Shown one piece after another: positions 27,610 through 42,345 of a stretch of DNA of 42,345 bases. Origin of the DNA: an uncultured Clostridia bacterium (lineage in GTDB: Bacteria > Bacillota > Clostridia > Oscillospirales > Oscillospiraceae); assembly GCA_945864305.1 (NCBI GenBank), contig CAMBAJ010000012.1:1-42345 (forward strand), read 5' to 3'. How positions within the stretch are numbered: the first letter of the stretch is position 1; every line of letters begins with the position of its first letter. The notes under the pieces were generated by a model. It was not told the origin of the DNA, made no database searches, and was given only the letters and a program-made list of their open reading frames with translations. The position numbers were made by a program, and so were the translations under genes.

Positions 27610-27638
27610 TTGCAATTCAAAAAAACGCATGTTATACT
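27610..27638 (+). promoter_or_regulatory. rpmE promoter
   Basis: TTGCAA (27610-27615), 17-bp spacer, TATACT (27633-27638) with extended -10 TGT, in a locally AT-rich region. It leaves a leader of about 60 nt before rpmE. Confidence 0.8.
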
Positions 27639-27706
27639 AATTACCGCCTTTGCTGGGTGAAAGCTCTGCACAGGTAGTCTGGATTAGAAAGAGGTGAACG
27701 AGAGCA

Positions 27707-27910: not shown

Positions 27911-27924
27911 GTCTGACACATCAC

Positions 27925-27957
27925 AAAAGGGTCTGCCATTTCGGCAGACCCTTTTTT
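27925..27957 (+). terminator. rpmE terminator
   Basis: A 13-bp stem AAAAGGGTCTGCC / GGCAGACCCTTTT with loop ATTTC and a T6 run. Confidence 0.95.
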
Positions 27958-28030
27958 ATTTACTTTTTCATGGGATTCGCATATACTATATACGATGTTT
28001 GACAACGACCATTGAGAAGGAGTGTGCGCC

Positions 28031-28546
28031 ATGAAACTGCATCCCGTGGACCTGAAAACGCTGACGCCGGAGATTTTCCGGGTGTTCGGAACCCAAAACG
28101 CGCTGCTGACCGCAGGTGATCGATCCAGCTGCAATACCATGACCATCGGCTGGTGCCAGCTGGGCCGGCTGTGGAGCCTGCCTGCCTGCACGGTCTACGT
28201 GCGCCCGGAGCGCTATACCTATCGATTCATGGAATCCCACGACTATTTTACCGTGTCCATCTTGCCTGCCGCTGAAAAGCAGACCATGGCCTTTTGCGGG
28301 ACCAAAAGCGGCAGGGACGTGGATAAGATCAGGGAATGCGGCCTGACGGTCTGCTACGGCGCCGAAGACGCCCCGTTCTTTGACGAGGCGGAGCTGGTGC
28401 TGGTTTGCAAAAAGATATATGCCCAGGATATGGACCCGACCTATGTGAAGGCGGAGGCGGATGCCATCCTGTCCCACTACGGGGAGGGAAAGGGCAACTG
28501 GCACCGCATGTACGTGGGCCAGGTCGTGGAAGCCTATACGAAATAA
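28031..28546 (+). CDS. Flavin reductase-like (FMN-binding split-barrel) protein
   Basis: A 171-aa protein of the flavin reductase-like family. The characteristic segment is NTMTIGWCQLGRLWSLPACTVYVRPERYTYRF followed by YFTVSILP, which places a flavin phosphate-binding strand and turn. The physiological acceptor is unknown. The ATG at 28031 has AAGGAG at 28015-28020; an in-frame GTG at 28022 is too close to that site. The hflX gene follows after 17 nt with its RBS overlapping this stop codon, so the two are probably one transcript. Confidence 0.82.
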   Translation: MKLHPVDLKTLTPEIFRVFGTQNALLTAGDRSSCNTMTIGWCQLGRLWSLPACTVYVRPERYTYRFMESHDYFTVSILPAAEKQTMAFCGTKSGRDVDKIRECGLTVCYGAEDAPFFDEAELVLVCKKIYAQDMDPTYVKAEADAILSHYGEGKGNWHRMYVGQVVEAYTK

Positions 28547-28563
28547 GGAGAGACATTCCATAC

Positions 28564-29835
28564 ATGCGAGAGACAGAAGAAGTTCGTGACAAAGTGGTGC
28601 TGGTGGGCCTGAGCTCCCCGGTGCTGAAAAGGGCAGAGAACGCCGACGAGGAGACCATGGAGGAGCTCTCCGCCCTGGTGGAGACCGCCGGAGGCGAGAC
28701 CGTGGGTATTGTGCTGCAAAACCGGGCCACGCCGGACCCCCGCACCTTCATCGGCGAGGGCAAGGTGGCGGAGGTCCAGCTGTACTGCGAGAACGTGGGG
28801 GCCACCATGGTCATCTTCGACAATGACCTGTCCCCCTCCCAGCAGCGGGTGCTGACGGAGCTGCTGGGCATCCAGGTGCTGGACCGCTGCGGCCTGATTC
28901 TGGACATTTTTGCCCAGCGGGCCAAGACGAAAGAGGGCCGACTCCAGGTGGAGCTGGCCCAGTACAAGTATCTGCTGCCCCGGCTGACGGGCATGTGGAC
29001 CCACCTGGAGCGCCAGGGCGGCACCAGCGGCAAGGGCCCCATCGGCTCCAAGGGCCCCGGTGAGACCCAGCTGGAGACGGACCGCCGCATTATCCACAAG
29101 AAGATCGACAAGCTGCGGGCGGACCTGGAGGATGTGCGCCGGGTGCGGAGCACCCAGCGCCAGCAGCGCCGGAAGAACGAGATTCCGGTGGTGGCCATCG
29201 TGGGCTATACCAATGCGGGCAAATCTACGCTGCTGAATCAGCTCACCGGCGCGGGCATCCCGGCCAACAACCGGCTGTTCGATACCCTGGACACCACCAG
29301 CCGCCTGCTGACGGTCAGCGACACCCTAGACGTGGTGATCTCCGACACCGTCGGCTTTATCCGCAAGCTGCCCCACCAGCTGGTGGAGGCCTTCAAGGCC
29401 ACTTTGGAGGAGCTGGAGTACGCCGACCTACTGCTCCACGTCATCGACGTGTCCAACCCGGAGTGGCAGTCCCAGGCCCAGGTGGTGGAGAACCTGATTC
29501 TGGAGCTGGGCGCCGGAGACCTGCCCCGCATTGACGTGTTCAACAAGAGCGACTGCGTCCCGGCGGGGGAGATCATGCCCCACGGCGAGGACATCTGCGC
29601 CATCTCCGCCCGCACCGGCGAGGGCATCCCTAAGCTGCTGGAGATGATTGACAAGCGGCTGGACAAAGGCACCCGGCGGGTGGTGCTGCACATTCCCTAT
29701 GACAAGGGCGGCCTGCTGGACATGCTGTACCGGGAGGCCAAGGTGGAGAATGTGGAGTACAGCGAGACCATCGACGTGACAGCGGTCTGTGGCCCACGGA
29801 CTCTGGGCCAGGTGGAACCGTTTATCGAAGAATGA
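28564..29835 (+). CDS. hflX: Ribosome-associated GTPase HflX
   Basis: A 423-aa GTPase that binds the 50S/70S ribosome and helps split stalled ribosomes. The N-terminal HflX domain shows PDPRTFIGEGKV, the domain linker GPGETQLE (164-171) and a coiled-coil stretch. The G domain has the P-loop GYTNAGKS (214-221), G3 DTVGF (261-265) and G4 NKSD (327-330). AAGGAG at 28545-28550 overlaps the preceding stop. The longer open frame back to 28405 overlaps the flavin reductase and does not look like HflX. The last 14 bases overlap the convergent 72-aa gene. Confidence 0.95.
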   Translation: MRETEEVRDKVVLVGLSSPVLKRAENADEETMEELSALVETAGGETVGIVLQNRATPDPRTFIGEGKVAEVQLYCENVGATMVIFDNDLSPSQQRVLTELLGIQVLDRCGLILDIFAQRAKTKEGRLQVELAQYKYLLPRLTGMWTHLERQGGTSGKGPIGSKGPGETQLETDRRIIHKKIDKLRADLEDVRRVRSTQRQQRRKNEIPVVAIVGYTNAGKSTLLNQLTGAGIPANNRLFDTLDTTSRLLTVSDTLDVVISDTVGFIRKLPHQLVEAFKATLEELEYADLLLHVIDVSNPEWQSQAQVVENLILELGAGDLPRIDVFNKSDCVPAGEIMPHGEDICAISARTGEGIPKLLEMIDKRLDKGTRRVVLHIPYDKGGLLDMLYREAKVENVEYSETIDVTAVCGPRTLGQVEPFIEE

Positions 29836-30040
29836 ACGGGGACAGCCTTTCGCCGGTGCGCAGGCCCAGTAGGAAAGCGTGAATGGCGGTGAATTCCAGG
29901 GTTTTCTCGAACTCCTCCCGGCAGTTGGGGTCCAGCCCACTGTCCATCAGGGAGAGCCAGAATTCGTAATCGCCCTGCGGAGCAGCGTCGATTTGCGGCT
30001 TGATGCAATGGGCGTAGAGCCATATGATAAAATCAGACAT
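29822..30040 (-). CDS. Small acidic protein of unknown function, divergent from an XRE regulator
   Basis: A 72-aa acidic protein (MSDFIIWLYAHCIKPQIDAAP ... FILR), predicted helical, with no motif I recognise. The ATG at 30040 has GAAAGGCGG upstream; an extension to 30121 would run through the dyad operator and is less likely. Its 3' end overlaps hflX by 14 nt on the opposite strand. It is transcribed away from a small XRE regulator with a 29-bp-phased dyad between them (30063-30106), so the two are probably regulated together. Function unknown; a toxin-antitoxin-like pair is possible but nothing in the sequence shows it. Confidence 0.55.
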   Translation of the reverse strand: MSDFIIWLYAHCIKPQIDAAPQGDYEFWLSLMDSGLDPNCREEFEKTLEFTAIHAFLLGLRTGERLSPFILR

Positions 30041-30062
30041 TGGAAGACCGCCTTTCGAAAAA

Positions 30063-30106
30063 CGTCCGATTATTCGTGAATTTAAAATATTACGAATAAT
30101 TAGACG
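30063..30106. promoter_or_regulatory. Long dyad operator between the 72-aa gene and the XRE gene
   Basis: Arms CGTCCGATTATTCGT (30063-30077) and ACGAATAATTAGACG (30092-30106) are inverted copies matching at 13 of 15 positions. The AT-rich 14-bp spacer could hold the -10 elements of both divergent genes. Likely target of the adjacent XRE protein. Confidence 0.65.
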
Positions 30107-30121
30107 TGCCAAGGGGGACAT

Positions 30122-30328
30122 ATGAATTTTTACGAAAGATTATGCATGCTCCGCAAGGAGCGGAAAGAGACCCAGGTACAGGTAGCGGAAGCAATTGGTA
30201 TTACAGATAGACAGTATCAACGCTTTGAGGCTGGAGAGCAGAAACCCGGTTTTGACAACCTCTGGGCCATGGCGGACCCCTTCGGGGCATCCGTGGATTA
30301 CTTGATGGGCCGCAGGGAGCAGAGATGA
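30122..30328 (+). CDS. XRE-family helix-turn-helix regulator
   Basis: A 68-aa single-domain HTH protein (ERLCMLRKERKETQVQVAEAIGITDRQYQRFEAGEQKP), the Cro/CI-type fold, with helix 3 around TDRQYQRFE and the usual DYLMGR end. AGGGGG at 30111-30116. Its stop overlaps the next start (ATGA), coupling it to the GNAT gene. Probably represses itself and the divergent 72-aa gene through the dyad upstream. Confidence 0.88.
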   Translation: MNFYERLCMLRKERKETQVQVAEAIGITDRQYQRFEAGEQKPGFDNLWAMADPFGASVDYLMGRREQR

Positions 30329-30888
30329 AAAGGACTGCCATTTTGGAGACACCGCGCTTACGCCTGCGCCCCTTCCGGGACAGCGATGCGGCGGACGTCT
30401 ATGCCTACGCGAAGGACCCGGCCGTGGGTCCCATTGCGGGCTGGCCGCCTCACCGGAGTGAGCAGGAGAGCCGGGAGATCATCTGGACCGTATTCTCTGC
30501 CCCCGGCGTGTTCGCCATGGAGCTGAAAGAGACCGGAAGTGTGGTGGGTTCCGTGGGGTTTGTGGGGAACCACCCAACCGGGACCATCCCGGACTGTCCC
30601 GATGATGAGGTGGGATATGCCTTGAGCCGGGCCTGCTGGGGGTGGGGATTGATGCCCGAGGCGGTGAACGCCGTGCTGGAATATGGGTTTACCGTGCTTG
30701 ACCTGCGGCGCGTCTGGTGCGGCCACTACGCCGGAAACTGGCGGTCCAAACGGACCATGGAGAAGTGCGGCTTCCGCTATCAGTTCGCGAGAACGGATCA
30801 TGTGGCCCTGATGGGCGAGTTCCGGCAGAGTTATTTCTATCTGTTGACCAAGGAGGACTGGAATGGACGCATATCGGGTGCCCTTTGA
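30325..30888 (+). CDS. GNAT acetyltransferase (RimJ/RimL type)
   Basis: A 187-aa N-acetyltransferase. It opens with ETPRLRLRPFRDSDA, the usual RimJ/L start, and has the acetyl-CoA loop SRACWGWGLMPEAVNAVLEYGF, then LRRVWCGHYAGNWRSKRTMEKCGFR. The acetyl acceptor (ribosomal protein N-terminus, antibiotic or other amine) cannot be told. It overlaps the XRE stop by 4 nt and the YigZ start by 26 nt, so XRE-GNAT-YigZ reads as one transcript. Confidence 0.88.
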   Translation: MKRTAILETPRLRLRPFRDSDAADVYAYAKDPAVGPIAGWPPHRSEQESREIIWTVFSAPGVFAMELKETGSVVGSVGFVGNHPTGTIPDCPDDEVGYALSRACWGWGLMPEAVNAVLEYGFTVLDLRRVWCGHYAGNWRSKRTMEKCGFRYQFARTDHVALMGEFRQSYFYLLTKEDWNGRISGAL

Positions 30889-31501
30889 GAACACTGAGAG
30901 CGAGTTTGTGGAGAAGCGCTCACGCTTCATCAGCCACATCTGGCGGGTGGAGACGGAGGCGGAGGCCAGGGCGCACATTGAGGAGATGAAGAAGAAGTAC
31001 TACGACGCCCGGCACAACTGCTGGTGCTACCTGCTGAAAGAGGGGAACGCGGTCCGCTACTCCGACGACGGAGAGCCCCAGGGCACCGCCGGACAACCCA
31101 TGCTGAACGTATTTCAGCGGGAGGAGGTCACCAACGTCTGCTGTGTGGTAACGCGGTACTTCGGCGGCGTCCTGCTGGGTGCCGGCGGATTGACCAGGGC
31201 CTATACCAAGGGCGCCAAGGACGCCCTGGACGCGGCGGGCATCAGCACCATGAGCCTGTGGACGCTGTGGGACGTGCCCTGTACATACCCGCTGTTGGAG
31301 CGGATGAAGCTGGACATCACTGCCTGCGGCGGCGTGGTGCGGGACGCGGCGTACGCCGCGGATATCACCTTGCGGACGGCCTTTCCGGCCGGTGGCGCGG
31401 AACAGTTCCAGCCCCGTCTGACGGAGCTGTCCGCTGGTCAGCTGGAGATGGTCCCGGCGGGGGAAGAGTTCCTGCCCGGCCCCCGGGAAGACGCAAAATA
31501 G
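30863..31501 (+). CDS. YigZ/IMPACT family protein
   Basis: A 212-aa protein of the UPF0029 (IMPACT/YigZ) family. The N-terminal domain has FVEKRSRFISHIWRV, DARHNCWCYLL, the signature RYSDDGEPQGTAGQPML and VTRYFGGVLLGAGGLTRAY; a smaller C-terminal ferredoxin-like domain follows. The eukaryotic relative IMPACT binds GCN1; the bacterial role is not settled. It overlaps the GNAT gene by 26 nt in another frame and ends at a symmetric terminator. Confidence 0.93.
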   Translation: MDAYRVPFENTESEFVEKRSRFISHIWRVETEAEARAHIEEMKKKYYDARHNCWCYLLKEGNAVRYSDDGEPQGTAGQPMLNVFQREEVTNVCCVVTRYFGGVLLGAGGLTRAYTKGAKDALDAAGISTMSLWTLWDVPCTYPLLERMKLDITACGGVVRDAAYAADITLRTAFPAGGAEQFQPRLTELSAGQLEMVPAGEEFLPGPREDAK

Positions 31502-31507
31502 GTGAAC

Positions 31508-31543
31508 AAAAAGAGCAACGGACTGATTTCCGGTGCTCTTTTT
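31508..31543. terminator. Bidirectional terminator between yigZ and the HMA-like gene
   Basis: Stem AAAAAGAGCA / TGCTCTTTTT, one mismatch, then CGGA / TCCG with a 6-nt loop. A- and T-runs on the two sides suit convergent transcription. Confidence 0.85.
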
Positions 31544-31573
31544 ATGCGGATCATGAGAAAAATGTGTCGGCCT

Positions 31574-31792
31574 TCAATCGTCAGTCCGCACCAGAAACCC
31601 CAATTCCTGAATCTTCTGCCTGATTTCTTCCTGGCGGATGCCGGTGGAATCGTAATCCACGGCCAGACAGCCGTTTTCGCTGATGCTGACGGAGGTGACG
31701 CCGGGCAGGGTGTCCAGTTCCCGCTTCAGCTGGTTCACGTCGTGCTTGCCGTGGACATCGTCTAAAGAGAAATACGTGCTCAGTTGGGACAT
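31574..31792 (-). CDS. HMA-fold-like small protein lacking the CxxC metal site
   Basis: A 72-aa protein with the secondary-structure rhythm of an HMA domain (VNQLKRELDTLPGVTSVSISENGCLAVDYDSTGIRQEEIRQKIQELGFLV). The loop that normally carries MxCxxC reads DVHGKHDVNQ, so the two cysteines are missing. Two His residues there could bind a metal, or the domain could have another job. The ATG at 31792 has GGAAGGAG about 10 nt upstream; the GTG at 31801 is too close to that site. It lies 57 nt after the DMT transporter on the same strand and is probably co-transcribed. Confidence 0.7.
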   Translation of the reverse strand: MSQLSTYFSLDDVHGKHDVNQLKRELDTLPGVTSVSISENGCLAVDYDSTGIRQEEIRQKIQELGFLVRTDD

Positions 31793-31849
31793 GCCATCCA
31801 CTCCTTCCGCCGATAGTATGTCCGGCGGGAAGAAAATTATGGGCAGGTG

Positions 31850-32803
31850 TCAGGCGTGCTGCTTATGCGGAAGGGCGGAAGCACCCTGCCGGTTGACAAT
31901 GAAAATACCGCAGCAGACCAATGCCAGCGCCAGCAGATACTGTGCCCAGGGAAGCTGCCCGCCCTCCCGCAGAAGGAGAATGGACAGCAGAACACCGAAC
32001 ACCGGTGTCATGAATCCGAATACTGCGATGCGGGAGACAGGGTTATACTTCAGGAGCGTGCCCCAGACAGAATAGGCGACAGCGGAGATCAGCGCCATGT
32101 ACAGCAGGAGGAGGGCGCTTTTAAAGGTATCAAACCGGATCCGCCCGCCGCCCGCAAGTCCGATCAGGACCATCACGGCTCCGCCGAGGACGAACTGATA
32201 GCCACTGAGGACCACCGGATTTTCGCGGGCGGAGTAGCCGCGCATCAGAGAAGAAGAGACTGCGTAGGAGAGAGCCGAGATCAAAAGAAATCCCTCACCG
32301 GAGAGAGACATGCCTCCGCCCAGGCTTCCTCCGGACAGATTGACCAGAATAACGCCGGCGAAGCCGATGAGGCAGCCGGTAGCCTTGCGGGCGCTGAAGG
32401 GCTCCTGATGAAAGAAAAAGCAGGCGATCAGAATGGCAAAAAATGTACTTGAGGCCTCAATGATCGACGCTTTGACACCAGAGGTATGGGCCATTCCAAT
32501 ATAATAAAAGACATATTGAAGGATCGTCTGGAACAGACTTAGGACGGCGATCATGGGCCAGGAACCGCGGCGCGGGACCAGCGGTCCGCGATGCTGCAGA
32601 CTGCCAAACAGGATCACTAGGATACCGGCCAGTGTAAAGCGAATACCGCCGAAGAGAAGCTGGGCGAAGGGTTGGCCGGAGTCGATCTGAAACAGTTGAT
32701 ATCCGATTTTGACGCAGGGGAACGCACTGCCCCAGAGAAAGCAGCAAAGCGTAGCCAGCAGGCAGACGACTCCGGCCTGCTGCATGCATTTTTGTGACGG
32801 CAT
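31850..32803 (-). CDS. DMT/EamA-family transporter
   Basis: A 317-aa membrane protein with about ten hydrophobic helices in two related halves (EamA repeat): LLATLCCFLWGSAFPCVKIGY at the N-terminus and LLYMALISAVAYSVWGTLLKYNPVSRIAVFGFMTPVFGVLLS in the second half. These are drug/metabolite exporters of varied substrates; the substrate is not predictable. The ATG at 32803 is chosen because AGGAAGG lies about 12 nt upstream; longer frames to 33166 run across the promoter, terminator and tRNA fragment. Its promoter is at 32847-32875. Confidence 0.9.
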   Translation of the reverse strand: MPSQKCMQQAGVVCLLATLCCFLWGSAFPCVKIGYQLFQIDSGQPFAQLLFGGIRFTLAGILVILFGSLQHRGPLVPRRGSWPMIAVLSLFQTILQYVFYYIGMAHTSGVKASIIEASSTFFAILIACFFFHQEPFSARKATGCLIGFAGVILVNLSGGSLGGGMSLSGEGFLLISALSYAVSSSLMRGYSARENPVVLSGYQFVLGGAVMVLIGLAGGGRIRFDTFKSALLLLYMALISAVAYSVWGTLLKYNPVSRIAVFGFMTPVFGVLLSILLLREGGQLPWAQYLLALALVCCGIFIVNRQGASALPHKQHA

Positions 32804-32846
32804 AATGGTCACACCTTCCTGATTCATATGTGCATGAGAGATTTTC

Positions 32847-32875
32847 ATTATGTCAGACCTGAGAAGAAAGGTCAA
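32847..32875 (-). promoter_or_regulatory. Promoter of the DMT transporter gene
   Basis: Minus strand: TTGACC (32875-32870), 17-bp spacer, CATAAT (32852-32847), preceded by TGA (extended -10). Both hexamers match consensus at 5 of 6 positions. Confidence 0.75.
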
Positions 32876-32948
32876 TGTACAAAAGAGCAAAAGAAAAAAG
32901 ATCAAAGGGAGATTGGGTATCACGAAAAAGAGAAGGAAGCGACAAAAC

Positions 32949-32986
32949 AAAAGAGTTCTGAAGCCTTTCGGTTTCAGAACTCTTTT
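32949..32986. terminator. Terminator abutting the left tRNA fragment
   Basis: Stem AAAAGAGTTCTGAA / TTCAGAACTCTTTT with extra G-U, C-G and C-G pairs closing a TTTC loop. In the minus-strand direction it directly follows the CCA end of the tRNA fragment, so it is probably the original chromosomal terminator of that tRNA gene. Confidence 0.85.
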
Positions 32987-33030
32987 GGTACGCCGTGAGG
33001 GATTCGAACCCCCGGCCTTCTGGTCCGTAG
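32983..33030. repeat. Left att direct repeat (48 bp)
   Basis: Identical over 48 bp to 42291-42338 and in the same orientation. It runs from TTTTGGTACGCC to GGTCCGTAG. The identity stops inside the anticodon loop of the tRNA, where tyrosine integrases typically cross over. Confidence 0.92.
32986..33030 (-). pseudogene. tRNA-Arg(ACG) 3'-half fragment
   Basis: Read on the minus strand: anticodon loop CTACGGA (anticodon ACG), stem CCAGA, variable AGGCC, T arm GGGGG-TTCGAAT-CCCTC, acceptor ACGGCGT, A, CCA. The upstream bases (TGCAG) cannot pair with CCAGA, so the 5' half has been replaced by element sequence and the fragment is not a working tRNA. Confidence 0.8.
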
Positions 33031-33144
33031 CTGCAACCCAGAAATTTTTCTGATGCTTTCCAGCGCTACTCTGGTCTTTTCGCTCCCGTCCCCAATCCTG
33101 TTTGGGCCTGTTCACTCCATTGCTTCCACAAGGAAATTTTCTAG

Positions 33145-33167
33145 TCTGGGTCAGGATATGGGTCAAA
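33145..33167 (+). other. Left candidate integrase arm site
   Basis: TCTGGGTCAG, five bases, GGGTCAAA. The same two blocks with the same 5-nt spacing and orientation occur at 42187-42209 near the other end. The rest of 33031-33240 (between the att repeat and jetD) holds no gene that I can see. Confidence 0.6.
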
Positions 33168-33240
33168 ACTTATGCTAACGCCCCTGTCAAATGCCGCAAG
33201 CCAATAATACCAATTTTGCCGAGATACCCTGCACAAGCCA

Positions 33241-34431
33241 TTACAGTTTCATCGCTGCAAAAGATTCCTGTTCCACTTTGCAGTTGTTTTCTTTCATGAA
33301 GTCAAATATCTCCCTGTATGGATTTAACAACGGATATTGCATAGCTTTCCGGTCTTCTGCCGTCAGTGGACGATAGTGCCCCGCCGTGAAGCAGTCCTTC
33401 AAAGTTGGCAAATCCATCTCCATTGGTTGGAAGGGGATACCGGTCTTTTGTTTTAGATTCTCCAGAATCAGGAAGCCGTGAGGGTCCAAATCTCCGTGAT
33501 GAAAATAGTTGGCATCTGGCTCATTGGAATACACCATACGCAAAAAATTTGCCCGAACAGAATTGGGAAAACCGCCCAGATATAGGACTGCCTGGCTACG
33601 CTCTGACGTATCGTGGTACGTAGTCAGGTTCTCCACCGAGACGACGGTTTTATCCTGCAGGTGTACCGCCTGCACTGTGCTCAGCGCATCAGACGCAAGG
33701 CCAATGCCGCCGGGAAGATTGGCAACGCAAATAGCCGAATCGGCAAAATCCAGAATCCAACCGCCCTTCAGATAAAGGTAGGTTGGGTTTTCAAAAAGAT
33801 TATAATACTCCAGAATTTTATCCTTTTCTACTGGCTGTTCCGTCAGGTCTACCAGCACACTGCGGGTAATCCCTGAAATAGTCTGAAATCGTTTTGAATC
33901 ATGAAATACCGCCTCGGAAAAATTGCGGAGATATGTCTCTTTGCGTAGATGTTCCATCTTCTCCAACGCCAATAAGACATCACGCAGTTTTTCTGTATCT
34001 CCCTGAAGACCATATCCCGGTGACCGTCCTTCCTGCAGCGCAGCGATAGCCTTTTCCGCAAACCGCCTTGTCAGCCCATTCGATCGTCTCTGAGCATCTT
34101 GGAGCAGTTGCATCTGCTCCTGCCGAATCACTTGGGCCGGTTTGCGGCCCAGTAACTTATAGATCTCCGACATCCGTTCTTGGCAGAGGATGAGTTTTGT
34201 ATAATATCCCTGTGCGCTACGGGGAGCAGTGACCATCTGCCACCCGGCCAAGCGGGTAATGGCATCGTCGATTTCCTGTTCATCCATACCCAGATGGTCT
34301 TTATATTGTGGATAGCGCTTGACTACATCCAGTGTCACTGCCCGCCGCTGTCTGCCGTCAGGTGGCTGATCGTATCGCCTTTGTTCGTAGACGTCCACCA
34401 GGGTATTTAATATCTCTCGTACATAATCCAT
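33241..34431 (-). CDS. jetD: Wadjet system nuclease subunit JetD (toprim domain)
   Basis: A 396-aa protein with a mostly helical, winged-helix-like N-terminal half and a C-terminal toprim nuclease domain related to topoisomerase VI/Spo11. Toprim motifs are the Glu strand VVSVENLTTYHD (E267) and the DxD block HHGDLDPHGF (D314, D316), all intact. In Wadjet, JetD cleaves closed circular DNA after loop extrusion by JetABC (family knowledge). Fourth gene of the operon, starting 3 nt after the jetC stop. The DUF2220-type C-terminus fits JetD; the first half is more divergent. Confidence 0.9.
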   Translation of the reverse strand: MDYVREILNTLVDVYEQRRYDQPPDGRQRRAVTLDVVKRYPQYKDHLGMDEQEIDDAITRLAGWQMVTAPRSAQGYYTKLILCQERMSEIYKLLGRKPAQVIRQEQMQLLQDAQRRSNGLTRRFAEKAIAALQEGRSPGYGLQGDTEKLRDVLLALEKMEHLRKETYLRNFSEAVFHDSKRFQTISGITRSVLVDLTEQPVEKDKILEYYNLFENPTYLYLKGGWILDFADSAICVANLPGGIGLASDALSTVQAVHLQDKTVVSVENLTTYHDTSERSQAVLYLGGFPNSVRANFLRMVYSNEPDANYFHHGDLDPHGFLILENLKQKTGIPFQPMEMDLPTLKDCFTAGHYRPLTAEDRKAMQYPLLNPYREIFDFMKENNCKVEQESFAAMKL

Positions 34432-34434
34432 GGT

Positions 34435-37400
34435 TCACTTCACATCCTGATAAAACGCTTTTACTGCATTGCGTGCGCCGCTTTTAATGATTGAGCAGGT
34501 CACGTCGCAATAGGGCTGGATTGCCGATGCCTTTTCCACTGTGGTGATCAATACCACCTGCAGCCGCATTTTGCGCAGCATCTGCATCATGGGCCGGATG
34601 CGGTCACTAGTCATACGGCTGAACGCTTCATCCAGCAGTACCAGACGGACACTATTCTCACATTTGTCATAGATCTGCAGCAGCGATGCACAGATTGCAA
34701 TGTAGAACGGTGCCTGGTTTTCACCGCCGCTGCTGTCCTGGCTGACGGTGGAGAGTCGGGTAACACCACCAGTCACCTGATTTCGACATTCAATATCATA
34801 TTCCAGGTAGTAGCGATAGTCTACATAGCTGGAAAGTTCTGTGGTAATTTTTTTACCTTCCTGACGGCGCTGGGCATTCGCTTTCAATTCCACCAAAATG
34901 CGCTCCATCAGATCCTCAACTTGTGCCTCATAAGCAGGGTCGTTGCGGGCAAGCATATCTTCTATGCCACCGTCTCCGTTGATCCTACGGTTGCTGTCCT
35001 TCATGATCACATCATAGAAAGCCTTGCGTTCCGGATCGGCACTGGCCTGGACCACGAATTGATAGACCTCTTCACCATATTGCAGGTTTTCCATAGAACG
35101 GTTCAAATCCCTAAACTGCCGCCGCGCGTTGATGATATCATCTTTCATCCGATACAGAATGTCCTCCCGGAAACGTTCCTTGCACCGTTCCTGTGCCTGA
35201 TGAAGACTGGTGGTGTACCTCTGCAAATCCACATTTATCAATCGGTCACGTTGTTCCCGGAATGTCTCGATGCCCTCCAACCCCAGGGGATAATCGCAAG
35301 TGTAGGCGCTGTTGTACTCCCGCTGTTTGGGGTTCAGCTGGTCTCGCATACACTCCTCCAATGCTTTGTTTACCTGGTTCTGGTAATTTGTCTGGTACTC
35401 TACGATCTTTTCCGGGCTGCGGCTCTGGGTGGCATCCTGGTATTTTTTCTCAATTTCCGTCTGCAGCAACGGATTCTGCTCGCAAAACTCCTGCCACGCG
35501 ATCTTCGTTTCCTCGGCCACTTGAATCGCCTGGTCTTGTTCCTGCTGCTTTTCCGTTACCAAAGTTTCCTGTGCGTGGAGGGCGAATGCAATTTCTTCCT
35601 TCTTTTTCTGCTGGCGCTCCCATTCCTCCCGGCAAAGCCGTTCCGCAGTCATTTTTGCCTGAAGGATCGGGTTCCCCTGCCACTCCTGATATTCCTTCTC
35701 CGCCCGCTTCAGTTCCTGCCAGCAAGTTTCGCACCGTTGGCGGCTACCCCAGTTTTTCCGCAGGTCCGTCAGTGCTGAGCCGTCCAGAACCTTGCGGCAT
35801 TGCTGCAGTGTATCATGCAGAAATTGCGTTTGGCTGTTCAGCGCTGCAAGCCGCTCACGGAGCTCAGCGAATTCTTCTTTTGCCGCTTTTAGCTGCCGCT
35901 TGCGGGCATCCAGACCAACGAATAGTTTTGGAGTACGAAGCCGGGCTAGCCGGTAGGGAAAGTGCCGCAGCAGGTCCCGTGTCGCACTGTGGGGAAAGTT
36001 TTCCAATGTTTCCGATGTGTCACAGCAGATGATCTGACCTAACAGGCTATTCACATAATGCTTAGCCAACCAACTTTCGCTGGTGACTTTGGCTGCGAGG
36101 CTATCCAATTCCGGAGTGGCGTTTCGGTCGGCATCCCTTTCCAGAGCACGGCTATCCAGCAAGCTGACCCGCCCCACCTCGGCACCCAGCTGTTCAAACA
36201 CCCGCTTGGCCGTACGATAGTGCTTTGGCGCCACCAAGATGTCGAATCGGCGATCTCCCAGGCACGCCTCCACACAATTCTGCCAATCCAGCTCCTGTAC
36301 GGTCAAGAGCTCACACAGGACCCTGGCATCCGCATCCATACCCTGCTGGACGAACTCACGGTTGATCGCCTGGCAGACCCAGTTTGCCCGGTCATTGTCC
36401 GGATAGATCAACTGTCCTTTTTCCAAGGTTTCAATCTGCTTTCTCAGGGCATCCCGGCGCTTTTCCGCCTGCTCTAATTGGCTCCTGCTGTTAAATTCGG
36501 CCTGATCCAGCGCCTTCTCCCTTTCATGCAGCAACCGTTCCATTGCCTCCAGCTGCTCCAACTGCCGGCGTTCCGGCAATTTTTCGATTTCATCCGGCAT
36601 TTGCTCTGGCGTGAGCGCAAGCTTACAGTCCGCAAATTTTCGGTTCAGGTGTTCAATCTCCTGCTTTGCGTTTTCCAATGCACTTTGGGCTGATTGGGCC
36701 TCACGATAGTCCCTTTTGCGCTCATTCACCAGGTCCTCAAATACCTGTAACTGCTGGCGTTCACTGCTGTCCTGATTCTCCTGTGCCGCTTTCATGAACC
36801 GCTGGTGGGCCTGTTCTGTTCGCTCCTGTTGACTACCCAGTTCCCGCTGCAGCCGATCAATCTCCATATTGGCCTTAGTAATGGCCGTCAAAATCTCCTC
36901 TTCATATCCAGCGGCCGCCTGCTGCTTTGCGCACAGGACGAACCCCTGGTTGATAACGCAGTCCCGTTGTTTTGCGTAAGCTGTCTCCCCCAACTCACAA
37001 ATCTCCGTCAGAAGCTGAGCGCGGTTTTTCGCTTGGAGAAGCACATCATTCAGATTCTCCAGCTCGATTTGCTCCCTCTGCAGCGCCTCGGGGTCAATCT
37101 CTGGCTGAGGCAGAATGTAATGATAGATAAACTCCCGGAAATCCTCTATATCGTCCATTCCGGTGCCCATAGGGAATACGGCGCAGAACTTCTTGCCCAA
37201 GGGCGAATCCGCCGCGCCAATGCCCAAGGCACGGCAAATCAGATCTTTTGCCGTTTTTTGATTATCGGTGTCTCTCATTTTACCGCTTTTCAGGCAGAAC
37301 TGCTCTCGCTTGGTAGGAATGCGGTCTGGGCCCAGAAACGGAAGGTCCTCCAATGCGAAACCATGGGACGTGATATACCACCGTTGTTGTACATGGCGCA

Positions 37401-37770
37401 TATCTTCATCCGGACTCTCAGATTCGACCCGAACCGTGATTACAAAAGGCTCCTTCCCTGACACAGCAGTATCGTCCCAGAACTCAGCTCCAATGTAGGA
37501 TACCGTGTGTCCTTTGCGGCTATAACGAGGCTTATCTCCATCCTGATCACGTTGCTTGCCATGTACCGAGCCCAGCAGCGTTCGTTTGCTCTTTCGGTTG
37601 CCCAGAACATTAAAAGTTTTGTTGGTAGTCAGACAATAGCGAAGCGCATCCAGAATAGTGGTCTTACCCACGCCATTGACTCCGATCAGATATGTGATTT
37701 GCTGGATGTCCAGAAGATCGTCTGTAAAATTGTGCCAATTGATCAGCCGCAGGCGGTGCAATGCGATCAT
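34435..37770 (-). CDS. jetC: Wadjet system SMC/MukB-like ATPase JetC
   Basis: A 1111-aa SMC-type ATPase. It opens with LHRLRLINWHNFTDD and the Walker A GVNGVGKT (30-37). Long heptad-rich coiled coils (about 260-450 and 640-900) flank a central hinge-like segment (about 455-560, with LDWQNCVEACLGDRRFDILVAP). The ABC signature is SSGGENQ (about 1013-1019) and Walker B is LVLLDEAF (DE at 1047-1048). It would extrude DNA loops with JetA and JetB. The start overlaps the jetB stop as ATGA, with GGAGGAAG just upstream. A complete, undamaged frame. Confidence 0.93.
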   Translation of the reverse strand: MIALHRLRLINWHNFTDDLLDIQQITYLIGVNGVGKTTILDALRYCLTTNKTFNVLGNRKSKRTLLGSVHGKQRDQDGDKPRYSRKGHTVSYIGAEFWDDTAVSGKEPFVITVRVESESPDEDMRHVQQRWYITSHGFALEDLPFLGPDRIPTKREQFCLKSGKMRDTDNQKTAKDLICRALGIGAADSPLGKKFCAVFPMGTGMDDIEDFREFIYHYILPQPEIDPEALQREQIELENLNDVLLQAKNRAQLLTEICELGETAYAKQRDCVINQGFVLCAKQQAAAGYEEEILTAITKANMEIDRLQRELGSQQERTEQAHQRFMKAAQENQDSSERQQLQVFEDLVNERKRDYREAQSAQSALENAKQEIEHLNRKFADCKLALTPEQMPDEIEKLPERRQLEQLEAMERLLHEREKALDQAEFNSRSQLEQAEKRRDALRKQIETLEKGQLIYPDNDRANWVCQAINREFVQQGMDADARVLCELLTVQELDWQNCVEACLGDRRFDILVAPKHYRTAKRVFEQLGAEVGRVSLLDSRALERDADRNATPELDSLAAKVTSESWLAKHYVNSLLGQIICCDTSETLENFPHSATRDLLRHFPYRLARLRTPKLFVGLDARKRQLKAAKEEFAELRERLAALNSQTQFLHDTLQQCRKVLDGSALTDLRKNWGSRQRCETCWQELKRAEKEYQEWQGNPILQAKMTAERLCREEWERQQKKKEEIAFALHAQETLVTEKQQEQDQAIQVAEETKIAWQEFCEQNPLLQTEIEKKYQDATQSRSPEKIVEYQTNYQNQVNKALEECMRDQLNPKQREYNSAYTCDYPLGLEGIETFREQRDRLINVDLQRYTTSLHQAQERCKERFREDILYRMKDDIINARRQFRDLNRSMENLQYGEEVYQFVVQASADPERKAFYDVIMKDSNRRINGDGGIEDMLARNDPAYEAQVEDLMERILVELKANAQRRQEGKKITTELSSYVDYRYYLEYDIECRNQVTGGVTRLSTVSQDSSGGENQAPFYIAICASLLQIYDKCENSVRLVLLDEAFSRMTSDRIRPMMQMLRKMRLQVVLITTVEKASAIQPYCDVTCSIIKSGARNAVKAFYQDVK

Positions 37771-38336
37771 GTATCTTCCTCCTCTCCGGCCTTCCGATAT
37801 TTATTCAGTTCTTCCATCGTCGCGTCTCTTGACGCCTTCAGTACATTGTCCGGCAAGGCCAGGATCACTGTTGGATAGATCTCAATTTTGGCATTTTCGT
37901 CTGACAGACGGTCCAGTGGCCTTGCCAAATTATAGTTCTTCAAGGTTCGCAGTGCGCCTTCCAAGGTGGGACGGTCCAGCTTGCGGGGAAGATTCAGCTT
38001 CTGAAATTCGTCCTGAATCTCTCTAACCGTGACGGTAACATGCTCTCCGTCCACTGAGAGCTTCTCCCGTTTTTGCAGATACAATAACCGAAAAATCAGC
38101 AGCAAAATGCTCTCGTATTTGTTCAGGCGGGCCTGATTTCCCTCAAATTCATTGACCAGAGCAATCACCTTCAGCGGTGCGGTATGATATACGACGGTAT
38201 AGCCCAACGGCTTGAATACTCGACGCAGTTCTTCCAGATGATTGACTGCATAATAGTGTTTTTCCCGCATCTCCTCCGCCTGTACCGGTAGGAAGCAATG
38301 ATTCAGCAGGTAGTTGGCAATTTCTTTGACATCCAT
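37767..38336 (-). CDS. jetB: Wadjet system MukE-like subunit JetB
   Basis: A 189-aa mostly helical protein, predicted winged-helix (KITE/MukE-like), which bridges JetA and JetC. The central segment NKYESILLLIFRLLYLQKREKLSVDGEHVTVTVREIQDEFQKLNLPRKLDRPTLEGALRTLKNYNLA is typical of JetB/DUF4194-like subunits. The ATG at 38336 has AGGAG 8 nt upstream; an in-frame TTG at 38354 would put that ribosome-binding site inside the gene. The gap to jetA is 14 nt and the stop overlaps jetC. Assigned on size, position and helix pattern rather than on sharp motifs. Confidence 0.82.
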   Translation of the reverse strand: MDVKEIANYLLNHCFLPVQAEEMREKHYYAVNHLEELRRVFKPLGYTVVYHTAPLKVIALVNEFEGNQARLNKYESILLLIFRLLYLQKREKLSVDGEHVTVTVREIQDEFQKLNLPRKLDRPTLEGALRTLKNYNLARPLDRLSDENAKIEIYPTVILALPDNVLKASRDATMEELNKYRKAGEEEDT

Positions 38337-38350
38337 GAAAAAGTCTCCTT

Positions 38351-39751
38351 TCAAGCCCGCTTACGTACCCAAAACTGCTGGAATCGGAATCCATTGCAGT
38401 TCACCCACTCGTCTTGCACTGTGATTTCGTAATTTCGATCACCGGATTGGGAGTAGGTATGCAAACCGATGATCTTGATCAGATCATCGGTCTCCCTCCC
38501 AGCCAGCGCTGAAGCAGAGACTGTTTCGCAGCCGCTCAACACCCGGTCTGCGAACCGATTCACATTTTCCTGGGTGACAGCCTGACGGACGTATCCCATG
38601 AGCAATTCTTGCTGCCGTTGCAATTCCTCCTGGGAGATAGGCGGTTCAGGAGGTACTTGCTCAATTGGGGTAGGTTTTCGGCTGTTGACAGCTGGCTTAA
38701 GAAAGTGCTTCCCCATAATTTCGACAGGATATAGCTTCCACTGGTGACTCAGTGGGCTTTCGTCCGGTTCAAAAAGTTCCTCCGGTTTTTTGACTGTCTC
38801 CGCGTAATACCGCAGCAAATCACTGATTTTTCCCTGAGTCGATCCGTCAGACAGCAGCATAAACTGAGCCCTCTGCACGGCCCGCTGGCGGTAGGTCACA
38901 TGGTTGCGGTCGATTTCACCAATGAGGTCATGCATGATATCCAGTTCATCTCGTACTCTCTGAATCAGCCGGCGCACCGCAATGGCGCCCTCTGTCTCAT
39001 TCACTCGCTCTACCCGGCAATAGTCGGCAGTCAGCGCACTGACATACCGTCCCTCACAATCGTCCAGACCATCCAGAATTTCTGTGCGATAATTAAAAAG
39101 ATTATCGCTGGTTTTAAAACGGTGATATGCCGCAACGACGATTTCCTCCTCATACTGCTGAAACAGGTCCAGCACTTCCTGAGGTGTTCGGTTTCGGGTC
39201 AACCGATCAATGTACGTTCCGATAGAGGCGTTGAGTTGTCGAAGAGAGGTATTTAGATCCGCCATGTCGGATGAGACTTCTTTCAACACATTCTCATATG
39301 GACTTTTTTCACTCTCCATCTCTTGAAGCAGTCGATATGCTTTGAGGAGTTTACCACTGTACGTCACAGTTTTCGGATTCAGCATAGCATCAAAAACCTG
39401 CAACAGGTGGACTGCTGGAACGCTTAGGGCGGTGCGGACTTCTTCTTCATAACCGCCCTCCAACTCCTCCAGCCATCCGGTTTCCCGTAGCCGGCGCATA
39501 AACAGAAGCGCTTGGTTCCTGGGATCATGAACAACATCACCTGCTATGTCATCTTCATCCGGCTGCAGAGGGATTGATAGTCCCTCCATATATTCCTCTG
39601 CCAATTCAGTTAAAGAGCTTTTTTCCATGCTATAGTCCTGTGATGTGCCGCATCTCTTCCAAATCAGCATCAACAGGTCAGCGTATATCATCTGATTGCG
39701 TCCTGCCAGCGGGCGAAACATTTTGGGATTTAACAAGTCAAAAAGATTCAT
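38351..39751 (-). CDS. jetA: Wadjet system kleisin-like subunit JetA
   Basis: A 466-aa helical protein, MukF/kleisin-like, first gene of the operon. It opens MNLFDLLNPKMFRPLAGRNQMIYADLLMLIW, then shows an acidic region, a long middle helix bundle and a C-terminal segment beginning after PIEQVPPEPPISQEELQ that would be the winged-helix end binding a JetC head. The opening resembles the JetA group once called DUF5716 better than DUF3375 of type I, so the subtype may be II or III; I cannot fix it. The ATG at 39751 has GGGGGTGG upstream; another in-frame ATG lies at 39769. Confidence 0.82.
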   Translation of the reverse strand: MNLFDLLNPKMFRPLAGRNQMIYADLLMLIWKRCGTSQDYSMEKSSLTELAEEYMEGLSIPLQPDEDDIAGDVVHDPRNQALLFMRRLRETGWLEELEGGYEEEVRTALSVPAVHLLQVFDAMLNPKTVTYSGKLLKAYRLLQEMESEKSPYENVLKEVSSDMADLNTSLRQLNASIGTYIDRLTRNRTPQEVLDLFQQYEEEIVVAAYHRFKTSDNLFNYRTEILDGLDDCEGRYVSALTADYCRVERVNETEGAIAVRRLIQRVRDELDIMHDLIGEIDRNHVTYRQRAVQRAQFMLLSDGSTQGKISDLLRYYAETVKKPEELFEPDESPLSHQWKLYPVEIMGKHFLKPAVNSRKPTPIEQVPPEPPISQEELQRQQELLMGYVRQAVTQENVNRFADRVLSGCETVSASALAGRETDDLIKIIGLHTYSQSGDRNYEITVQDEWVNCNGFRFQQFWVRKRA

Positions 39752-40708
39752 CAGGCCACCCCCGCGCATATCTGTTGATTATTTTTTTGCAAGAATATAG
39801 CGTTGGCTTTTACTGTTATTCGTAGAAATACTCCAGTACGTGTTGCCTAAAAATTTTCGTGATAAAACAAGAAATCATTTATCATAAGAATATCATTTTC
39901 TGGCAGGATTTACAAGTCAGCTGAAAATTCAAATACTGCGTTACCAATCAATGACTAAGCATCTCTTTGAAAGAGAAAAGAACATCCGATAATTTCTCAC
40001 CCCTGTTGGCCGCTGTGTGCGATTCTCTCAGATGGGTGGCATCCTTTCCCAACCGACAACCCAGAACGAAGTGTGCGGCATTTGTGGGCCATGTTGGCAT
40101 CAGAGAGCAGTCTCACAGGTGTAAATTCCATGGCAGACTTGCCCGTCCAAGAGCGATTGCGGAGGACGAAAAGAAAAGCGGGATAAAGAACAGGCGTCAA
40201 GTGTGGCGCTCTGTTCAGTCACTTCTACCCGCAGTGCGGGCAGTTACGAGGGTTTTCGGGGCGTTCCAAAGCGGGGTCAAAATCGAAGGCGTGATATCGC
40301 TTCTACGGTCGTATTCTCCAAGAGCTTACTCCCGCAAGAAAATAATGGGGGTCATGCCCGATATAGGCGCGGATTTCAAGGGAATAGGAGAATTTATCAA
40401 CCACCTGGCACCGAGCCACCCTCCAGCCCATCCAGTCCCCATCAGCAGTGAGATCCGAATTCATACCCGATGGAGGTATTCAAAAATTGCGTCGCAGTAG
40501 ACAAAGAACAGGAACTTTTCTGCCCCCAGCATTTGCACCACCCTCCCTACATCGGATGGAGAGGAAATATATGAACAAAACGAAGGCAACAAAGAATAGG
40601 CTCTCTCGATAATGAAACTCTTAACTTTCTGATAACTCTCTGCTTTTGGGCTGGCTATTGCCGCTCCTTTTGGGTATGGTGTGTTGCTGAATAGGAGGTG
40701 GCACACAA
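39752..40708. other. About 950 bp of the island with no supportable gene
   Basis: The first ~200 bp (to about 39960) are AT-rich and must hold the jet promoter; a TATATT -10-like element reads on the minus strand near 39799-39804, but no good -35 accompanies it. From 39960 on, reading frames on both strands are open in places (177 codons on plus) but lack ribosome-binding sites and protein-like composition. Minus-strand pieces such as RAYIGHDPHYF and NPRNCPHCG, each cut by stops, suggest decayed coding sequence. A 13-bp palindrome CCCGCAGTGCGGG lies at 40226-40238. Confidence 0.5.
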
Positions 40709-41017
40709 ATGCACGATTATATGAAAGCACTTTACCACAGATTTGAGACTCCATCGGAACAGATGACCACTCTGGAAAAGGCAGCAAACAAAATTCATAG
40801 GCAGTTGGCCAACAGGCTGAAAAAGCCAGAGAAAAAGATGCTCCTGCGCCTTGTAGATCTGGAAGCTGCCCTGCGGGACCAGGCCTGCCTGAACAGTTTT
40901 ATATCCGGCTACCGCTTGGCCCAGGGTATCCAGCAGGAACTGCTGGCAGACCTGCCGCCCTACAACTTCGAGGACGAAGATGAGCGGCAAGCCTGCCAAC
41001 GAATGTGGGAGGGCTGA
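40709..41017 (+). CDS. DUF6809-like small protein upstream of the integrase
   Basis: A 102-aa helical protein (MHDYMKALYHRFETPSEQ ... KKMLLRLVDLEAALRDQ ... SFISGYRLAQGIQQEL). I recognise the KPEKKMLLRLVDL and FISGYRLA segments as the DUF6809 kind found beside integrases in clostridial elements. The function is unknown; a directionality or regulatory role is possible from position alone. AGGAGG at 40693-40698, 10 nt before the ATG. It ends 3 nt before the integrase start, so the two are co-translated. Confidence 0.7.
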   Translation: MHDYMKALYHRFETPSEQMTTLEKAANKIHRQLANRLKKPEKKMLLRLVDLEAALRDQACLNSFISGYRLAQGIQQELLADLPPYNFEDEDERQACQRMWEG

Positions 41018-41020
41018 GAA

Positions 41021-42178
41021 ATGGCAAAAAAGCGAGCGAACGGCGAGGGCAGCATCCGTAAGCGAAAGGATGGCCGCTGGGAGGGCAGGTATACCGCAGG
41101 ACATGACCCAACGACAGGTAAGACCATCTACAAGAACGTCCTTGGCAAAACACAGGCGGAGGTCAAAGAGAAACTGAAAAAAGCCATTGAGGAAGCTGGC
41201 AAGCTGGATATTGCGAGGGCTGGACAGTACACAGTAGGACAGTGGCTGGACCTCTGGCTGGAGAACTACGCCAAATTAAAAGTCCGTCCCTCATCCTATC
41301 AGACCTACCAGGGTTTTATCAAAAACCATGTGAAGCCCTCCATCGGAGACATCCCACTCTCAAAGCTGACCACCATGGATCTCCAGCAGCTCTACAAAAA
41401 GCTGCTGGAAAGCGGACGGGTAGACCGCGTTGAGGCGAAAAGCAAACCCAAAGGGCTGAGTGCCAAAACGGTGCGGAACATTCACCAGATGATCTCCTCC
41501 GCTTGCGGATTCGCCGTAAACCAGAAGCTGCTTGCCAGCAATTCCGCCTGCGCCTGCGCCCTTCCCCGCATTGAACGCAAGGAAATGAAAACCATCCCTC
41601 CGGACAAGCTGACCTCCTTCTTCGATGAAGCCAAAGAAAGCGGTGTATTCGAACTCTACTACATCGACTTGCTCACCGGCCTTCGGCGCGGAGAACTGCT
41701 GGGACTGAAATGGGATGACGTCGATCTGAAAAACGGCATTCTCCACGTCCGCAGGCAGATCATGCGGCAGAACGGAGCTGTGGTAGAGGCGCCGCTGAAA
41801 ACGAAAAACTCCTACCGCAGCATTGCCATTCCAGCAGACGCGGTAGAAGTTCTGAAAACGCAGAGAGAAAAAGTTGGTTGCGGCAGCGAGTATGTATTCC
41901 CATCTCCCACAGGCGGGCCGATCTCGCCAGATAGCGTCCTGCATATGCTCCAGCGGGTACTGAAGCGGGCGGGATTGGAACGAGTCAGATTTCATGACCT
42001 CCGCCACACCTTCGCCACCCTGGCCTTGCAGAACGGTGTGGACGTAAAGACCGTATCCGGTATGCTAGGCCACTACTCCGCAGGCTTCACACTGGACACT
42101 TACGCCCACGTTACCACCGCAGCACAGAGAACGGCGGCAAATACCATGGGAAACATCCTCTCCGGTGCTGTCCGGTAA
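41021..42178 (+). CDS. Tyrosine-type site-specific integrase
   Basis: A 385-aa recombinase. The N-terminus is an AP2-like arm-binding domain (GEGSIRKRKDGRWEGRYTAGHDPTTGKTIYK), followed by a SAM-like core-binding domain (about 70-180) and the catalytic domain with R222 (TGLRRGE), K262, H325-X2-R328 (HDLRHTF), H351 (GHYS) and nucleophile Y361 (DTYAHV). All catalytic residues are present. It resembles Tn916-type integrases. It lies about 110 bp from the right att repeat, the usual place, and presumably acts on the tRNA-Arg att site. Confidence 0.95.
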   Translation: MAKKRANGEGSIRKRKDGRWEGRYTAGHDPTTGKTIYKNVLGKTQAEVKEKLKKAIEEAGKLDIARAGQYTVGQWLDLWLENYAKLKVRPSSYQTYQGFIKNHVKPSIGDIPLSKLTTMDLQQLYKKLLESGRVDRVEAKSKPKGLSAKTVRNIHQMISSACGFAVNQKLLASNSACACALPRIERKEMKTIPPDKLTSFFDEAKESGVFELYYIDLLTGLRRGELLGLKWDDVDLKNGILHVRRQIMRQNGAVVEAPLKTKNSYRSIAIPADAVEVLKTQREKVGCGSEYVFPSPTGGPISPDSVLHMLQRVLKRAGLERVRFHDLRHTFATLALQNGVDVKTVSGMLGHYSAGFTLDTYAHVTTAAQRTAANTMGNILSGAVR

Positions 42179-42186
42179 TTTCCGCA

Positions 42187-42209
42187 TCTGGGTCAGCGTT
42201 CGGGTCAAA
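42187..42209 (+). other. Right candidate integrase arm site
   Basis: TCTGGGTCAG, five bases, GGGTCAAA: the same blocks, spacing and orientation as at 33145-33167. It begins 9 nt after the integrase stop codon and lies about 82 bp from the right att repeat. Confidence 0.6.
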
Positions 42210-42257
42210 TACTGAGCCAAACGCTAATCACGGAACATTTTACAGGAAAATGCAAAC

Positions 42258-42294
42258 AAAAAGCTCCTGAAATCGATGATTTCAGGAGCTTTTT
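42258..42294. terminator. Bidirectional terminator between the integrase and the right tRNA fragment
   Basis: A 17-bp stem (AAAAAGCTCCTGAAATC and its complement) with loop GAT. It ends the integrase transcript and, read on the minus strand, directly follows the CCA end of the tRNA sequence. It differs in sequence from the left terminator, so the element brings its own. Confidence 0.93.
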
Positions 42295-42338
42295 GGTACG
42301 CCGTGAGGGATTCGAACCCCCGGCCTTCTGGTCCGTAG
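42291..42338. repeat. Right att direct repeat (48 bp)
   Basis: Identical to 32983-33030, same orientation. The identity ends at GTCCGTAG; the last seven bases of the window (GTTGTCT) differ from the left copy. Confidence 0.92.
42294..42338 (-). tRNA. tRNA-Arg(ACG) 3' half at the window edge (5' part not seen)
   Basis: The same 3' half as the left fragment: anticodon loop CTACGGA, T arm, acceptor and encoded CCA. The bases that should form the 5' anticodon stem read ACAAC and do not pair with CCAGA, so this copy also looks broken, although only seven bases are visible. It could be the end of a second element rather than the intact gene. Confidence 0.5.
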
Positions 42339-42345
42339 GTTGTCT

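Follow-up and report, generated by a model that had tools for sequence, protein, structure and literature searches.

A type I Wadjet operon on a tRNA-Arg integrative element with a predicted orphan origin of transfer

Known Wadjet systems and the locus analyzed here

Type I Wadjet, the focus of most Wadjet research to date, cuts DNA circles below about 100 kb after extruding them, and Wadjet operons coexist with circular plasmids and even lie on them (PMC10586767). Deletion of jetABCD in Clostridium cellulovorans raised conjugative plasmid uptake by about five orders of magnitude (PMC12287153). In E. coli, Wadjet-bearing mobile elements favor one integration hotspot, and 18 hotspots lie at tRNA loci (PMC10121019). 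Integrative elements that have an origin of transfer (oriT) and no relaxase are described as iOriT elements (PMC11389934), and pLS20 carries, in this order, an oriT, the ribbon-helix-helix (RHH) auxiliary genes aux1 and aux2 and a MOBL relaxase gene (PMC5675868). Here, we analyzed a stretch of 42,345 nt from an uncultured Clostridia bacterium (referred to as the window), which is the entire contig C12 of a metagenome-assembled genome (MAG) of 98 contigs (G000, 88.6% complete). It contains a jetABCD operon, and the locus is best explained, and probably correctly so, as a type I Wadjet system on an integrative element in tRNA-Arg(ACG) that carries an orphan oriT.

The operon shares the four protein families, the gene order and the ATPase and toprim residues with the described type I systems (the E. 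coli GF4-3 and P. aeruginosa PA14 cores, C. glutamicum MksBEFG and Mycobacterium EptABCD). Unlike these, it belongs to a divergent clade, has a JetB that looks N-terminally short and lies on an integrative element without a recognized relaxase. C. cellulovorans is a Clostridia host like the present one, the two operons being likened by description only, and no island or oriT context is described in the available text on that operon (PMC12287153). The E. coli defense islands belong to other hosts, and the accessible part of that report mentions no orphan oriT (PMC10121019). The window element matches the iOriT elements (PMC11389934) in its integrase, its attachment (att) sites at a tRNA gene, the lack of a recognized relaxase and a predicted oriT; unlike theirs, its cargo would destroy circular DNA, although elements of this kind, like their helpers, travel as circles. 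The pLS20 module is likened to our loci by the order oriT-auxiliary-relaxase, not by the letters of the oriT, and unlike in pLS20 the sequence in question sits in chromosomal loci, often without a relaxase (PMC5675868). Wadjet on mobile islands is thus already known; new here is the predicted orphan oriT on an apparently relaxase-less Wadjet island, for which no published description was found in the titles and abstract openings listed by searches of the open-licence literature. A circle-cutting system on an element that would itself pass through a circle and rely on circular helpers poses a direct, testable conflict.

A complete type I operon on an island in tRNA-Arg(ACG)

All four genes are encoded on the minus strand: jetA (39751-38351, 466 aa, kleisin-like subunit; alternative in-frame ATG at 39769), jetB (38336-37767, 189 aa, MukE-like subunit; possible in-frame TTG start at 38354), jetC (37770-34435, 1111 aa, SMC ATPase with hinge) and jetD (34431-33241, 396 aa, toprim nuclease subunit). 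According to these coordinates 14 nt lie between jetA and jetB, jetB and jetC overlap by 4 nt and 3 nt separate jetC from jetD, as had been stated in an earlier note on this DNA; all four frames are uninterrupted. That note had also taken the set as complete, with a JetA opening like those of the DUF5716 group and all key residues intact, and had proposed a profile check. These points were borne out. The PADLOC profiles JetA1 (3.2e-187), JetB1 (1.1e-62, match beginning at model position 15), JetC1 (E=0) and JetD1 (2.6e-103) matched the four proteins, and the listed PADLOC models of types II and III scored far below those of type I. Pfam assigned JetA to PF18982 (Wadjet protein JetA, 1.8e-88), JetB to DUF4194 (5.5e-19), JetC to SbcC_Walker_B (2.8e-19), SMC_hinge (1e-6) and AAA_29, and JetD to JetD_C (PF09983, 1.8e-13). 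JetC contains GVNGVGKT, SSGGE and LVLLDEAF; Walker A, signature, Walker B and hinge are all present, and the JetD toprim residues E267, D314 and D316 are unchanged in 8 of 8 JetDs and, in a larger alignment, in 39 of 39. A sequence search of the PDB yielded a homologue for JetC alone (8dk1_C, 5.9e-8); three rows for JetD (thioredoxin and glutaredoxin, E 0.03-0.5) and two for JetA (E above 0.5) were taken as chance matches, and JetB gave none.

The proteins are 72-86% identical to those of the closest named relative found (L080, from a MAG titled uncultured Oscillospiraceae). Codon comparison with this set gave dN/dS values of about 0.04 for jetB, 0.10 for jetC and 0.05 for jetD, figures that are only rough because dS is 1.8-3.3, and for jetA no dS could be computed; the values suggest that jetBCD are under constraint. 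A chance assembly of motifs is ruled out by the PADLOC and Pfam scores together with the codon comparison. The operon is real and complete, and it is apparently constrained.

Since the DUF5716 group corresponds to PADLOC JetA1, and all four proteins agree by profile, the set is assigned to Wadjet type I. The idea of a less studied subtype, put forward in the earlier note, thus fails, type I being the best-studied type. Within it the window set nevertheless belongs to a distinct, divergent clade. A midpoint-rooted JetC tree of 74 rows puts it in a fully supported group of 25, separated from the rest by a branch of length 2.23, the deep joins being unsure owing to a quick method and long branches. 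The tree was drawn from the best 80 of 444 confirmed stretches (77 loci) and left out six of the 80 (L081, L135, L140 and L156, cut by contig ends; L094, with a broken jetC; L084, a near-copy). Among these best 80, JetC identity to the window is at least 36% within the clade and at most 29% outside it; short partial JetC matches from the searches of the order and the genus reach 32-33%, and no relative found exceeds 77%.

The clade also differs in JetB. Measured from the conserved LLN motif, the nearest preceding ATG is 8-14 residues away in 27 of the 28 rows of the clade, the remaining row having no ATG, and 16-25 residues away in 32 of the 36 rows outside the clade that have both motif and ATG. 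The start thus lies about 10 residues nearer to the conserved motif than in most other sets, and JetB of the clade looks N-terminally short, the choice of start being predicted. The observation of a short JetB in the earlier note therefore appears to hold, while its reading as a less studied subtype does not. An N-terminal IFDR motif of JetB is reported to contact JetD and is not said in the available text to define a type (PMC10586767); because the exact letters IFDR occur in none of the scanned JetB frames, from the window or elsewhere, looking for them does not discriminate.

The operon is flanked by a direct repeat at 32972-33030 and 42280-42338 (93% identity over 59 nt with a perfect core of 48 nt, 9308 bp apart). 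Its core corresponds to the last part of the tRNA-Arg(ACG) gene (3' end), which ARAGORN found whole in 15 of 17 relative loci; both copies in the window are incomplete. The left one (attL, 32983-33030, minus strand) corresponds to the copy left by integration, and the right one (attR, 42291-42338, minus strand) lies beside the integrase gene and is followed by seven bases up to the contig end. The tyrosine integrase (41021-42178, plus strand, 385 aa) matched Phage_integrase (4.3e-30) and Phage_int_SAM_3 (1.2e-17) and contains an HDLRH motif. Directly upstream lies the gene of a DUF6809 protein (40709-41017, plus strand, 102 aa; PF20648, 5.7e-7), possibly an excision or regulatory factor, and the same order is found beside related integrases in L172, L078, L194, L196, L198 and L201. 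Profile scans of the four jet genes, the DUF6809 gene, the integrase gene and one open reading frame without a family, with small antisense frames set aside, recognized no relaxase inside the element. As judged from these scans, jetABCD is the sole recognizable cargo of a 9.3-kb integrative element.

At the same tRNA gene in the genomes G069, G075 and G077, two cores spaced by 8-11 kb enclose an integrase match, and tRNA-Arg(ACG) is therefore a recurrent integration site. G067 (L050) and G011 (L047) present the site without the island: hflX/IMPACT lie on the 3' side of the tRNA, with no integrase or jet match between. In G008 a contig (C35, L042) carries the same DUF6809-integrase end (proteins 97-98% identical) and a whole tRNA-Arg gene, and the DNA right of this tRNA is collinear with G067 and G011. 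Its jetA match ends after about 220 of 466 codons and is followed by a 111-bp sequence (L042, 1-111), of which five copies exist in G008, each at or a few bases from a contig end; this distribution fits a multicopy insertion sequence, whose end presumably cuts jetA. As jetBCD and the rest of the operon were not found in G008 (about 95% complete), they are deleted or unassembled there.

After the attR core the window ends with GTTGTCT (42339-42345), which is not tRNA sequence. The letters cTTGTCT follow the core in G075, G077 and G078, not in G069, and from these seven bases a second island in tandem after attR is possible.

The predicted origin of transfer and the reading of the island

Beside jetA lies a block of about 200 bp (40158-40359, plus strand) that we read as an orphan oriT of the MobL/MobP3 type, since copies of it are found upstream of MobP3 relaxase genes. 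It recurs in the genus with 72-90% identity over the longer copies, and with 92% in the island copy of G008. Searches for the block and for MobP3 covered 61 of 86 genus genomes, and the block counts are lower bounds because six candidates were scored per genome. Within this scope 47 block copies are listed (entered by hand), and for 26 of them a MobP3 match follows on the same strand, 495-863 bp downstream; one further copy lies beside a relaxase in G061. In ten retrieved loci the block is followed, after a gap of 16-29 bp, by a gene for a protein of about 139 aa and next by the relaxase gene; L199, L200 and L204 have this relaxase gene in partial or split form. The relaxase is MobP3 by NCBIfam NF041499 (1.3e-115 to 4.2e-118, four proteins) and matches MobL PF18555 (two proteins). 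Two copies of the 139-aa protein scanned by profile gave no convincing family, and from its sequence and position we read it as an RHH-like auxiliary protein.

In ten loci (the window, L042, L172, L078, L194, L196, L198, L201, L210 and L212) the DUF6809 gene and the integrase gene come after the block, and no match to the L205 relaxase was found in the stretch examined. Seven such orphan copies (21 pairs) have a mean identity of 85.5% within the block, against 42% immediately upstream of it and 65% immediately downstream, giving conservation a sharp upstream edge. For eight relaxase-bearing copies (28 pairs) the corresponding values are 76%, 38% and 80%, with 32% for unrelated DNA. Two hairpins are predicted within the block. 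Hairpin 1 (40187-40216, plus strand) covaries, and its stem is predicted by RNAalifold too; in hairpin 2 (40225-40243, plus strand) 96% of cells are paired and one of eight pairs covaries, and a conserved GTTACG follows. In both hairpins together 93% of cells pair, with 15 double-change cells and a covariation score of 0.175, values reached by none of 500 shuffles, though relatedness alone can inflate such scores. The exact hairpin pattern was not found in viral contigs. Taken together, position, covariation, the edge of conservation and the order known from pLS20 led us to predict that the block is an oriT and that the island is an iOriT element. The earlier note had described a small non-conjugative island: integrative it is, and no conjugation genes were recognized, but the predicted MobL/MobP3 oriT had been missed.

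Several observations weigh against this reading. The right junction is not directly visible, as the contig ends at attR. There is no relaxase downstream of 21 of the 47 block copies, four of these 21 lying near contig ends; conversely, a listed block was found upstream of 26 of 57 MobP3 rows and is lacking upstream of 31 (57 of 66 listed rows were used, namely every one of the 55 that passed the cut-off plus two lower-scoring ones). In relaxase-bearing copies the block is less alike than the DNA downstream of it. Two of the five covariation measures are weak: the number of pairs with double changes (6) was reached by 13 of 500 shuffles, and that of further pair types (15) by 47 of 500. A search of plasmid records, with the L205 copy as query, and of phage records did not match the block, and an Rfam scan of 27000-42345 returned a single sub-threshold match, outside the island, and none for the block. 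G008 shares the island end and gave no match to a MobP3 relaxase. No match to the TraG/VirD4 coupling protein family PF12696 was found in the host MAG at its 88.6% completeness, and transfer would therefore need an outside helper. Finally, JetB may be without an N-terminal stretch that could aid the docking of JetD.

On our preferred reading, a Wadjet island with an orphan oriT, the element would work as follows. By homology with type I systems, JetABC would act as a loop-extruding SMC motor and JetD as toprim nuclease; small circular DNA would be extruded to completion and then cut by JetD, so that plasmids and the circular transfer forms of other elements would be destroyed and the chromosome spared. 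The att repeats and the gene content suggest that the element is integrated and excised by its own tyrosine integrase. Its oriT would be nicked in trans by a MobL/MobP3 relaxase of another element, and the conjugation pore, like the relaxase not recognized on the island, would also be supplied from elsewhere. The only MobP3 match of the host MAG lies on contig C11, in a single MobP3 element whose block is 88% identical. The island may benefit by excluding other elements; use of Wadjet against rival plasmids, as suggested in the earlier note, is plausible by analogy with type I systems. Its own circle would have to escape cutting, because circles of 9.3 kb are small enough to be cut according to the reported range; this could happen, for instance, if a newly arrived copy were integrated before the Jet proteins had accumulated. 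As Wadjet operons coexist with or lie on circular plasmids, some tolerance must exist already. That the island hitchhikes on foreign MobL relaxases and its Wadjet system then destroys incoming circles, possibly those of its own relaxase donors, we hold to be rather unlikely; if true, the island needs an immunity based on the order of events or on expression, which would be a new conflict rule for element-borne defense.

The block could instead have served the relaxase operon as promoter or leader and have outlasted the loss of the relaxase genes, which would make the island an immobile or only site-specifically mobile relic. In favor of this, a mere 16-29 bp separate the block from the accessory gene in the ten relaxase-bearing loci, its hairpins could act as RNA, and the DNA to its right is partly alike among orphan copies (65% on average). 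Yet the orphan copies retain their high identity and sharp upstream edge with no accessory or relaxase gene after the block, the oriT of pLS20 likewise lies upstream of auxiliary and relaxase genes (PMC5675868), and the window and G008 are near identical except in one part: there is one difference in 39991-40251 and about 44 in 40252-40522, the change setting in directly behind hairpin 2, a pattern that recombination close to a nick could leave. We regard the leader explanation as doubtful.

Two further alternatives concern the operon. It is possible, though less likely than not, that Wadjet is plain host-beneficial cargo, with an incidental effect on rival elements in which the island has no stake. 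A Wadjet set 77% identical to that of the window lies in G061 near tRNA-Pro, beside genes judged by eye to be defense-like, and in G008 jetA is cut while the integrase module of the island persists. On the window island, however, Wadjet is the only cargo recognized, and at least one other orphan-block locus (L172) also carries defense-like genes (PDC-S26, WYL). A role mainly as a MukBEF/MksBEF-like chromosome organizer rather than in plasmid defense is very improbable. Related JetABC sets without JetD do exist (Faecalibacterium sets of the clade, G443/L089 and L102), but jetD of the window is intact, constrained and 3 nt from jetC, which sets it apart from the nuclease-less MksBEF-like class, and the rare, patchy occurrence of the window set would be unexpected for a housekeeping condensin. 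A Wadjet island with an orphan oriT probably accounts best for the locus, and the predicted MobL/MobP3 oriT offers a sequence by which trans-mobilizable islands of the genus can be sought.

Related Wadjet sets and other loci

A search of 60 genomes (the window's own and 59 relatives) detected JetC in the window's own genome only; JetC also matched in five of 86 genus genomes, where only G000 and G061 (77%) carry close ones, and in 15 of 394 genomes of the order; viral contigs searched with JetC contained no relative. The G061 set sits elsewhere and is not on the same element. In this genome (L221/L222, 268000-305000) the Wadjet set and a MobP3 element lie near two tRNA-Pro genes, and the same stretch contains methylase, helicase/ATPase and CBASS-like genes, judged by eye. 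An integrase near Wadjet as a general rule was likewise rejected: in the available flanks, many of them cut by contig ends, only the window, L117 and L138 of the 80 best loci matched a small home-made recombinase profile that is weak for distant recombinases.

No JetD match was found for 20 of the 80 best loci, of which four have a contig end within 312 bp of jetC, leaving 16; as the sample is the best 80 of 444 stretches, these counts are not prevalences. The label is weak for L086, because its contig ends 312 bp after jetC. On the JetC tree the lack of JetD requires at least four changes. In the genus of G289, judged to be Faecalibacterium, JetC of the clade is present in 15 of 31 genomes at 68-100% identity (two with inner stops), and G251 has a JetC at 46%. 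JetD occurs in eight of the 31 genomes, namely G251 and seven in which it adjoins a distant JetC, and 11 of the 15 genomes with clade JetC have no JetD anywhere. Faecalibacterium loci with JetABC and no adjoining JetD are L083, L084, L088, L097, L098 and L103. These sets hint at a non-cutting SMC role and warn against reading defense from JetABC alone; the window has JetD. No published description of JetABC without JetD in Faecalibacterium was found in the accessible open-licence literature, including PMC10123090, and the sets offer a natural comparison of plasmid-cutting with possibly non-cutting SMC complexes. A second, separate JetABC group without a JetD match (L139, L142, L143, L146, L147, L150 and L134) comes from contigs titled Bacilli, Bacillales, Izimaplasma, Acholeplasmataceae and others.

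Among the other loci with an orphan block, L172, L078 and L194 have proteins of 413 aa and 324 aa in common that are 97-100% identical. The L172 copies were assigned by profile to PDC-S26 / PD-(D/E)XK and WYL. In L194 the two genes lie beyond the integrase, and the other large gene encodes an alpha-amylase. An association of orphan-block islands with defense genes is suggested as a lead. The stretch 7111-12982 of L078 is a locus in the window's own genome (C1), with the block, DUF6809, a related integrase and no relaxase found. In L199 (4588-6153) a MobP3 relaxase domain and the end of a tyrosine recombinase share a single frame of 521 aa, a fusion that apparently arose by natural deletion.

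At the tRNA-Arg site itself, hflX and IMPACT lie on the opposite side of the tRNA in L044 and L048 as compared with L047 and L050. This apparent inversion of the tRNA relative to its hflX-side neighbors suggests a local rearrangement. On the 3' side of the same tRNA in G066 (L043, 3769-7692) there are a type II methyltransferase gene and restriction-enzyme-like genes.

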